Below, piece after piece: positions 1-5,084 of a stretch of 64,000 nucleotides of DNA (positions are counted from its first letter, which is position 1; the number at the start of each line of letters is the position of its first letter). The position numbers were made by a program, and so were the translations under genes. Below the pieces are notes generated by a model. The model ran no database searches. It had not been told where the DNA came from and saw only the letters and a program-made list of their open reading frames with translations. The stretch is from positions 32,415 through 96,414 of the forward strand of contig JANXBJ010000009.1 of assembly GCA_025057645.1 (NCBI GenBank), read 5' to 3'. Source of the DNA: Anaerolineales bacterium (GTDB lineage: Bacteria; Chloroflexota; Anaerolineae; Anaerolineales; UBA4823).

Positions 1-922
1 TTGTCTGATTGAAGGGGACGAAGACCAAAAAAGAGATTTTTCCATTTGTACCGGTTGTGCCGCTGCCGATCAGGTTGTTCTGGTTGTCGTATAGCTTAAA
101 AGTCCAGCCGGGAAGGTAGGGTTCCCCTTCGTCTTTGTCTCCGTCACCGTTTAAATCCTCGAATTTATAGACGCAGATTTCGGCGAGTTTGGCATTGCCG
201 AATTTTATCTCTTTCGTTTGGTCATAACCCAAAACGACCGACTGGCTGACCCCGGTTGTGGATAAATACCCGGATTGAACAGTTTCTGTAACGGTATACG
301 TACCGCTGGTCAAATTTCCAAAAGTCAGCGTGCCGGCATTGCTATCACTACCGCTCGTTGAATCACTGCCAATTTGGTTGCCACTGCTGTTATAGAGGGT
401 AAACGTCCAGCCGTTTAACCATCCCTCACCGCTATCTTTGCTTCCGTTGCCATTCTTGTCCTCGAATTTTCGGACGGTGATCTTGGAATACTTGGCGTTG
501 CCGAAATTTGCGGTCCAAGATTTTGATTGTTGTCCACCAGAGTATGTCCATTGCTGGCTGAGCGGGGTTGTGTTATACCAGCCGCTTTGCAGGGTCTCTG
601 TCAGGGTATAGGTACCGGTGCTGCAACTGGTCGAAAAAACTGCTTTCCCTTGCGAATTTGTCATCTTTGTTGCCGTAGTATTATTGGGGCGGGTTAGGGT
701 AAAGGTCCAGTCCTTTAGCGCACCCTCACCGTCATCTTGAATACCATCACCATCCTTGTCTTCGAATTTGAAAGCGGTAATCGTAAGGGTACATCCAGTG
801 TCTGTTTCAGCCTGAACGGGGCTTACCCACAGCGTTGCCAAGACAAACACCACAATCAGCGCAAACCCGATGATCTTCCGCAACGAGGGGCGCCCGGAGA
901 ATACAGAACTCTCTCCTCTCAT
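1..922 (-). CDS. Secreted SdrD/Cna-B-like repeat surface protein, C-terminus beyond window (partial)
   Basis: Manual minus-strand translation from ATG at 922, with GGAGG just upstream: MRGESSVFSGRPSLRKIIGFALIVVFVLATLWVSPVQAETDTGCTLTITAFKFEDKDGDGIQDDGEGALKDWTFTL..., open to the window edge. Three repeats of (F/Y)KFED-NGDG-D-GE--L-GWTF-LY. Not in the ORF track because there is no stop in the window. Confidence 0.9.
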   Translation of the reverse strand, partial: MRGESSVFSGRPSLRKIIGFALIVVFVLATLWVSPVQAETDTGCTLTITAFKFEDKDGDGIQDDGEGALKDWTFTLTRPNNTTATKMTNSQGKAVFSTSCSTGTYTLTETLQSGWYNTTPLSQQWTYSGGQQSKSWTANFGNAKYSKITVRKFEDKNGNGSKDSGEGWLNGWTFTLYNSSGNQIGSDSTSGSDSNAGTLTFGNLTSGTYTVTETVQSGYLSTTGVSQSVVLGYDQTKEIKFGNAKLAEICVYKFEDLNGDGDKDEGEPYLPGWTFKLYDNQNNLIGSGTTGTNGKISFLVFVPFNQT

Positions 923-961
923 CGCAACACCTCCTAGTGGCTAAAATCAAATTGTGAGATT

Positions 962-1050
962 CTCCTTTTCGGCAGCCAGACCGTCTGATCGTCCCCTTAA
1001 GACTCTTGGCTTTGCGTCCCCGTCTCGCGGCGGGTTTGCCTTTATCGGTC
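962..1050 (-). ncRNA. Cyclic di-GMP-I (GEMM-I) riboswitch candidate
   Basis: Minus strand: GAUAAAGGCAAACCCGCCGCGAGACGGGGACGCAAAGCCAAGAGUCUUAAGGGGACGAUCAGACGGUCUGGCUGCCGA. Contains GGCAAACC, a GCGA (GNRA) tetraloop, GGGACGCAAAGCC, a P2-like stem (CCA..GUCU/AGAC..UGG) and a GG-U-GCCGA 3' element. Lies in the 5' leader of the repeat-protein gene. Confidence 0.85.
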
Positions 1051-1059
1051 AGAGGAAAT

Positions 1060-1078
1060 CCGGACTTATAAGGTCCGG
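1060..1078. other. Inverted repeat CCGGAC-TTATAAG-GTCCGG upstream of the riboswitch
   Basis: Perfect 6-bp stem with 7-nt loop, read directly. Confidence 0.5.
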
Positions 1079-1165
1079 TTTTATAATAACAGGTCGACAC
1101 GCAAAAGGCAATAGGAAAAACGGACTATTTTTATCGCTTTTTATCGCTCGAATCGGACGGTGCCG

Positions 1166-3195: not shown

Positions 3196-3573
3196 TTACA
3201 CTTCTAAGGTGTAAGAGGCCCAGGCGATCTCGTTTTCCCAAAGCTTAACGGTAATTTGCTTCAAGTTGGGAAATTGCAAACGGACACATAGCGTCTCACA
3301 CAGCAGCCGAGCGAAGCGTTCCAAGCTGGGATTCAACCCGCGGAAAGGGGGCAGCTCGTTCAACGTGCGGTCACGATATTGCGCCACCGCTTCTTCCAAA
3401 GCTTGCTCTACGGCGACAATATCCACTAGATAGCCATGTTGGTCTAGCTCTTCTCCTTGGAGGAGAAGCTCTAAACGATAATGATGGGAGTGAAGCTGGT
3501 TCTCGGCGCCCCAATCGCCGCCGATCAAATAATGCTGAGCAATGAAGTCCCGTTCCACTCCGAGTTGATACAT
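3196..3573 (-). CDS. 6-pyruvoyl-tetrahydropterin synthase / 6-carboxytetrahydropterin synthase (QueD/PTPS) family
   Basis: FIAQHYLIGG...LHSHHYRLELLLQG...DIVAVEQAL...NPSLERFARLL: PTPS zinc-His and core motifs. Confidence 0.85.
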   Translation of the reverse strand: MYQLGVERDFIAQHYLIGGDWGAENQLHSHHYRLELLLQGEELDQHGYLVDIVAVEQALEEAVAQYRDRTLNELPPFRGLNPSLERFARLLCETLCVRLQFPNLKQITVKLWENEIAWASYTLEV

Positions 3574-3659
3574 AAAAGACCTCCATCGGAAAACTTTTCC
3601 CTTGCCACCGAGAGTCTCTTGGAAGAGGAGGCTTAGGCTGGCTTAGACCCTGCTTAATT

Positions 3660-5084
3660 TTATCCAAGCCAAAGCAAAGGAATACCTAGCCACTCGCACA
3701 GAGTCTCGACTTCACGGCGGTAATCTCCAAAGGTGAGCACAAAGTGTTGGGTGGTGCCAACCTCAGCGCAGCGGCGTAAAAAGGCCTCCACCGTAGCGTC
3801 TAGACGCAGGATGATATGGGGATAGCCCTCAATGCGCGGTGCTCCACCCAAGCTGCTCCCCTGGGCAGCGATGGCTTGCCAACCGCCCGGGGTGCAGCGG
3901 ATTTGCAACAAGGTCACGCGTCCTTTCCTGACAACGAACTGCAGATGCGCTCCCTCGGTCGCATCGGTCTGAGCATACTCGTAATCCTGAGAGATCCACA
4001 GCGAGCCGGGATCGGCCAGTTGAGGGTTTTGTGGGCCAGCGTGTCCCCCGATGATCAGGTTCTCAGCTTCGTCCCAAACCCAAAACTCGGCAAAGAAGAC
4101 TCCTGCGCCGCTCAACCGCTGGAGGATAAAAAGCGCTGTGGCCGCCCCCAAGTCACCTTCCAGACCGATATGGATGTTTCGCTCCCACAGCAAAGGAGGA
4201 TACAGAGCCGGTCGTAACCCAAGACGCTGATGCGTTTCTTCAGCTATATCATTGAAGGAAAGCACATCGATTTTGCGCTTGAGCGCCAGGTGAGCCAGCC
4301 CCAGAGAAGCGCGCGCTGCTCGTCTCAGCGTTGGCTCCGAGACTCCTCGAATGGGAATATTTTGACGCAAGTAGGTGAGAAACTGCTCAACCTCAGTTTC
4401 TTCGACGGCCTCGGCAGCTTCGGTAAGCTGATAGACGGAAAGGGCTTCCACTTGAGGGCCGATCTCGTGGAGCAGGCGAAATTCATCGACAAACGTGCTC
4501 TGCATTTGCTCATTGCGGTAGGGCAAAAGGCCGAACCGCGCCTTCCGCAAACCCTGGTACACCCCGACCACTCGGGCGAACTGGCTCAGCTCCGCCAGCA
4601 CTCTTTCCTGAGTAGGCGAACCATAGGTGAAAAAGAAGGCTTTCTTGAGGTTGCGCAGAGTGCCAAGCCCTTCAAACGTGCCAACCCACCCCGAGCCACG
4701 CAAAACTTCTAGGAAGGAAAGGGAGAGAGGCAGCTTCTGCCAAGGCTGAAAACACCAAATGGCTAGGGGACGGTTGCCCAAAGCGGAAAGGAAGGGTGCC
4801 AGATAGTAATCTTCAGCCCAGACCTGAAAGACCAGAATCACCCCTTCAACCTCGCTGTTGCGCAACTGCCGGCAAGCCGCTTCAAGGCTTTCCTGCGAGT
4901 TCACCGTCCAAATCTGGCTGAGGTTCACACAAGTCCCTAGAGCATTGCGGATCTGATTTGCATCTGCTTCTACCGCTTCTCCGAGGGCCGGCAGAGCGAC
5001 AACCGAGTCAAACCATTCTGCACGCAGGAGTACTAAGCCAAGTGGAGCATTGGAACAGGAGACCCGACTCATTGTTAGCCTCAA
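3660..5084 (-). CDS. L-arabinose/L-fucose isomerase-like sugar isomerase
   Basis: Overall resemblance to the fucose/arabinose isomerase-like family (GVILVFQVWAEDYYLAPFLSAL; ...IHIGLEGDLGAATALFILQRLSG). Confidence 0.65.
   Translation of the reverse strand: MRLTMSRVSCSNAPLGLVLLRAEWFDSVVALPALGEAVEADANQIRNALGTCVNLSQIWTVNSQESLEAACRQLRNSEVEGVILVFQVWAEDYYLAPFLSALGNRPLAIWCFQPWQKLPLSLSFLEVLRGSGWVGTFEGLGTLRNLKKAFFFTYGSPTQERVLAELSQFARVVGVYQGLRKARFGLLPYRNEQMQSTFVDEFRLLHEIGPQVEALSVYQLTEAAEAVEETEVEQFLTYLRQNIPIRGVSEPTLRRAARASLGLAHLALKRKIDVLSFNDIAEETHQRLGLRPALYPPLLWERNIHIGLEGDLGAATALFILQRLSGAGVFFAEFWVWDEAENLIIGGHAGPQNPQLADPGSLWISQDYEYAQTDATEGAHLQFVVRKGRVTLLQIRCTPGGWQAIAAQGSSLGGAPRIEGYPHIILRLDATVEAFLRRCAEVGTTQHFVLTFGDYRREVETLCEWLGIPLLWLG

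Follow-up and report, generated by a model that had tools for sequence, protein, structure and literature searches.

The c-di-GMP-I (GEMM-I) riboswitch class and a c-di-GMP-to-adhesin circuit are already known from Bacillota. In B. thuringiensis, a collagen adhesion protein is switched ON through the GEMM-I riboswitch Bc2 (PMC4933901), and in C. difficile some c-di-GMP riboswitches are OFF and others ON switches (PMC6366702). The riboswitch of Geobacter pilM is an ON switch where ligand binding and termination exclude each other (PMC9262584). G20, A47 and C92 are named as c-di-GMP contact residues in PMC4744006. What is new at the present locus is the genus-wide coupling of the aptamer to one protein tail, together with two expression platforms. 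A search of the available literature found no paper combining c-di-GMP, riboswitch and Anaerolineae, and the available portions of the Chloroflexi literature matches describe no such regulon.

The window, which is the whole 64-kb stretch of DNA analysed, had been proposed in a first-pass annotation to carry a GEMM-I candidate. The strings quoted there as the GEMM-I core were found in order on the minus strand (1050-961), and the candidate was borne out by cmscan. The c-di-GMP-I-GGC model RF03167 matched 967-1049(-) over its full length (1-80/80) with 72.0 bits and an E-value of 4.2e-15, and the parent family RF01051 matched the same aptamer with 65.4 bits. Both scores exceed the curated Rfam thresholds of 59 bits (RF03167) and 35 bits (RF01051), and 967-1049(-) was the sole match in the whole window at gathering thresholds. 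The match is far above chance level, and the element almost certainly belongs to the c-di-GMP-I class. The 3' end of the aptamer lies 44 nt upstream of the ATG at 922, for which a distance of ~40 nt had been estimated. The gene and its leader contain the following features.

1083..1111, minus strand: promoter-like TTGCCT (1111-1106), 17-nt spacer and TATTAT (1088-1083), with TG before the -10
1060..1078, minus strand: 5' leader hairpin CCGGAC-cuuauaa-GUCCGG, at the same place in six orthologs
1053..1058, minus strand: UUUCCU, 5' strand of the P1 extension and candidate anti-Shine-Dalgarno strand, pairing with AGGAGA at 966-961
967..1049, minus strand: c-di-GMP-I (GEMM-I) riboswitch aptamer, from the RF03167 and RF01051 covariance-model matches
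961..966, minus strand: AGGAGA right after the aptamer, 3' strand of the P1 extension, from the pairing test
930..935, minus strand: Shine-Dalgarno (SD) AGGAGG of the surface protein gene, read directly and aligned in six orthologs
1..922, minus strand: 5' part of the surface protein gene, which continues beyond the window

The full gene (L013:8835-10922(-)) encodes 695 aa, arranged as a signal peptide, four SdrD_B repeats, a GEVEDY region, GPTAVELK, a C-terminal membrane segment and GRRR. The SdrB/Cna-B-like product suspected earlier was recognized in the SdrD_B repeats (PF17210, 106.3 bits in four stretches, over the curated cut-off), and SpaA (PF17802) matched with 94.2 bits. An LPXTG-type motif is absent before the C-terminal membrane segment, where the tail reads GPTAVELKKMSAASPQPG-TM-GRRR. 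As judged from its predicted segments, the protein is secreted and membrane-anchored, and its domains suggest an adhesin function. Since it is followed by convergent genes, the surface gene is probably alone in its transcription unit. The closest named relatives of the protein come from Anaerolineae MAGs such as Nak19 (phylum Chloroflexota), in agreement with the suspected origin of the genome.

Conservation in orthologous leaders, on which the first-pass annotation had let its proposal depend, was found in 5/5 same-genus genomes. All of them carry the same aptamer before the same gene, and the encoded proteins are 67-91% identical to the window protein. The six leaders share the promoter, the 5' hairpin, the aptamer, the AGGAG after it and an AGGAGG-type SD before the ATG. 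The promoter search found one candidate where 0.2 were expected, which aligned at the same place in the six orthologs as ATTG...CTGcTATAaT, and we infer a transcription start at about 1078-1074. The 5' hairpin is present in 6/6 orthologs at -3.3 to -9.7 kcal/mol with stem sequences that differ between them; that of the window scored terminator-like on both strands. The AGGAG right after the aptamer is invariant in the six orthologs. Because the register of the P1 extension slips by one base between orthologs, it was tested by a duplex-energy shuffle instead of column-wise pair counting. The summed duplex energy over the six orthologs was -46.0 against a shuffle mean of -26.4, and 0/2000 shuffles were as good. 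The complementarity of the 5' pyrimidine strand to the true SD stayed within that given by composition (187/2000 shuffles). No terminator was found in any of the six SdrB leaders; the 'overlap' terminator called by the script for the window copy was rejected as a weak hairpin (-7.3 kcal/mol) without a proper U-run. Within the first codons, at the coding start (922-880(-)) and in the orthologs, there are a purine stretch of the GGAGAGA type and a stretch reading UUCUC(C). In most orthologs these can base-pair with the SD or fold into a hairpin, and they may belong to the expression platform.

A search of 41 genomes with the C-terminal 250 residues of the protein revealed that 15/15 tail places in the genus are in genes directly behind a GEMM-I aptamer. 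These places are in G000 and G002-G005 and include two fragments at contig ends; the contigs of G001 stop before the tail. One further tail gene behind a GEMM-I aptamer was found in G012 (G012:C45). The loci of the tail proteins are L013, L046, L049, L056, L084, L088, L092, L095, L101, L102, L104, L105 and L106, and the tail follows SdrD_B, thioester-domain (TED) with Big_1, SpaA-type and small proteins. No GEMM-I match was listed near the remoter tail homologs in other genera. Among the 41 genomes searched, GEMM-I itself was present in 23, and in none of the 14 controls.

The leaders of the other tail-type genes contain a terminator of the CUGCCG...CGGCAG-U type, the 5' arm of which is the aptamer 3' end CUGCC(G) containing C92 (13/13). 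They comprise 11 leaders in the genus, including G001:C184 with its tail cut off, and two in G012, where G012:C317 is cut off by the contig end and was assigned to the tail group by its leader. The terminator of G005:C157 was called by eye where the script had chosen another hairpin. Since the terminator arm holds C92, ligand binding and termination would be mutually exclusive in these sister leaders, which by this layout appear to be of an ON design like pilM.

The lack of a terminator in the six SdrB leaders, together with their 5' hairpin, P1 extension and true SD, suggests that their control is probably translational and ON; the direction is assigned because the sister leaders are ON-type and Bc2-Cap is ON. 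It is thus fairly likely that the window element is a c-di-GMP riboswitch that raises expression of the surface protein. At high c-di-GMP the aptamer would close, and P1 and the UCUCC-type:AGGAG extension would lock together. The locked extension would keep the pyrimidine strand off the true SD and off the AUG-proximal purine stretch, and ribosomes would load on the freed SD so that the surface protein is made. The same signal would turn on the other tail proteins by blocking a terminator that needs the aptamer 3' strand. When the six leaders were folded at equilibrium with and without the aptamer enforced, no consistent release of the SD was obtained. For the free RNA, strong predicted pairing of the SD with the 5' strand was limited to G003 (0.76), with at most 0.02 elsewhere. 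Since folding did not reproduce the anti-SD step, we propose the translational anti-SD mechanism tentatively and give it slightly less than an even chance.

The ON-type terminators of sister genes with the same tail make it unlikely that the element is an OFF switch, or that it acts on message stability or Rho-dependent termination instead of the SD, and the ligand-closed fold does not obviously cover the SD in all six leaders. Such modes would agree with the six leaders having neither a terminator nor a clear ligand-released SD, and with the separate OFF-type terminators of same-family GEMM-I leaders such as G000:C14. They would also agree with Vc1, reported in PMC4744006 as a GEMM-I element without a visible terminator or anti-SD.

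The main ligand of the presumed ON switch is very probably c-di-GMP, as judged from the binding pocket. In Vc2 numbering, the ligand-contact bases are canonical (G20 = 1040, A47 = 1013, C92 = 972). The first-pass annotation had favoured c-di-GMP over the A20 cGAMP variant from the G before CAAACC. The preference stands with the G20/A47/C92 pocket, and the cGAMP-type A20 is absent from the window aptamer, which has G at 1040. The numbering does not stand, as the base before CAAACC lies in G21-C22 territory, whereas the discriminating G20 precedes G21 by one base; since G20 and G21 are both G, the earlier conclusion holds despite this slip.

Sensing of another ligand, as the c-di-GMP-I-GGC name or the A20 form would imply, might be suspected from RF03167 being the best model, 6.6 bits above RF01051, and from the A20 of the G001 ortholog. 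We derived base 47 as the middle letter of 'GGC' from the RF03167 consensus and Vc2 numbering. The consensus GACGCGAAG has G at this position and the window, GACGCAAAG, has A. The GGC-variant reading was therefore rejected, because A is at 1013 without the A47G change. Since A47G is lacking and the contacts are canonical, the ligand is expected to be c-di-GMP. A47 (1013), G20 and C92, all present in the window, are the c-di-GMP contacts given in PMC4744006, and all six copies in the genome have A47 and are over both the RF03167 and RF01051 cut-offs, so that another ligand is very unlikely. Automatic reading of 97 aptamers from the genome and its relatives, with a few unclear ends, gave G20/A47/C92 in 77, A47G in none (0/97) and A20 in eight, the G001 ortholog among them. 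Among the six orthologs of the window aptamer, A20 instead of G20 was observed in G001 only (L096, G001:C234:675-757), which would be of the cGAMP or promiscuous type. This A20 is natural variation or an assembly error; unless it is the latter, the ligand assignment is weaker for the G001 species.

The survey of the same genome for other copies, as suggested in the first-pass annotation, yielded six GEMM-I aptamers in total: two on C11, a tandem pair on C4, one on C14 and the window copy. In this genome GGDEF was matched ten times, HD_5 six times and PilZ once, which makes c-di-GMP turnover in the source organism plausible; EAL was without a match. A decayed or non-functional relic is highly improbable. 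In favour of this explanation we counted the report that, of the 16 c-di-GMP riboswitches in C. difficile 630, only 11 work (Tamayo 2019, PMC6366702), but the aptamer core is near-invariant in six species whose surrounding leader has diverged, and the P1 extension is conserved.

As every detected tail protein of the genus lies behind an aptamer, one internal signal probably sets the whole surface-protein family. We further consider, at somewhat less than even odds, that the tail (GEVEDY...GPTAVELK...AAPQQ...TM...RRRRK) and GEMM-I may form a unit, in which every detected tail protein would be under direct c-di-GMP control through two platforms and a sortase-like protein would possibly be part of the programme. 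If true, Chloroflexota would have a regulon dedicated to cell-surface display and gated by c-di-GMP. The circuit appears to be genus-wide in an Anaerolineae lineage, where an aptamer of its own precedes each surface protein found with the tail. It allows the surface proteins that an uncultured Chloroflexota displays at high c-di-GMP to be predicted from sequence, and connects a hitherto unexplained C-terminal tail with signalling.

Other genes were also observed behind GEMM-I. A secreted sortase-like protein is encoded at L014:11842-12579(-), with relatives at L045, L055, L058 and L069. Its TLQTC, His and Arg are invariant in five relatives, hence the designation sortase-like; assignment as a true sortase was rejected, with PF04203 at 20.5 bits, under the Pfam cut-off, and no match in solved structures. 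Among the scanned ORFs downstream of GEMM-I, S8 subtilases (16/68) and SdrD_B proteins (12/68) were found. The S8 subtilases are the commonest GEMM-I-controlled class in the family (e.g. L047, L053, L054, L066, L068) and mostly have separate OFF-type terminators. The 97 aptamers fall into two groups, one with a GAAA P2 loop and a long P3, and the other with a GYGA-type P2 loop and a short P3, which is used by the tail genes. A separate terminator with a 5' arm complementary to the aptamer P3 strand, an OFF-type layout, accompanies many of the aptamers in which P2 is capped by GAAA. A terminator and P3 strand of this layout are seen, for example, at G000:C14 (AGCCTGGC/GCCAGGCT). As a lead only, proteases and surface proteins may be controlled in opposite directions, resembling the mix in C. 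difficile. GEMM-I aptamers also occur in abutting arrays of two or three, among them members with A20 or C20 (L076:588-850(+), L097 at about 3460-3724(-), L073:625-796(+)), and in L076 a TPP riboswitch comes after the array, at 1028-1139.

The locus can be compared with several known systems. Vc1-gbpA of V. cholerae is likewise a GEMM-I element before a colonisation gene, with no visible terminator (PMC4744006); the gene is different, an anti-SD was not detected in it, and the available part of that paper describes no P1 extension/SD pair. RF03167 is the best-scoring model over its cut-off, whereas the window aptamer does not have its consensus G at position 47. With Vc2 of V. cholerae (RF01051) the window copy shares the full aptamer, G20/A47/C92, a GNRA-capped P2 and a position upstream of a surface gene. 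It differs from RF01051 members such as Vc2 in its GCGA P2 loop, GAAA being found in the other aptamer group here, and in a short P1 that is continued by the UCUCC-type:AGGAG helix across an internal loop. The sister leaders resemble pilM of Geobacter (PMC9262584) in that the 3' strand of the aptamer, with the ligand-pairing C, doubles as a terminator arm, whereas pilM senses cGAMP and its platform differs from that of the window copy. Bc2-Cap (PMC4933901) is similar in that the leader of a surface adhesin gene contains a GEMM-I element; the logic is ON in that system and predicted to be so here. Bc2 works by antitermination, whereas the window leader is without a terminator and the sister leaders possess one.
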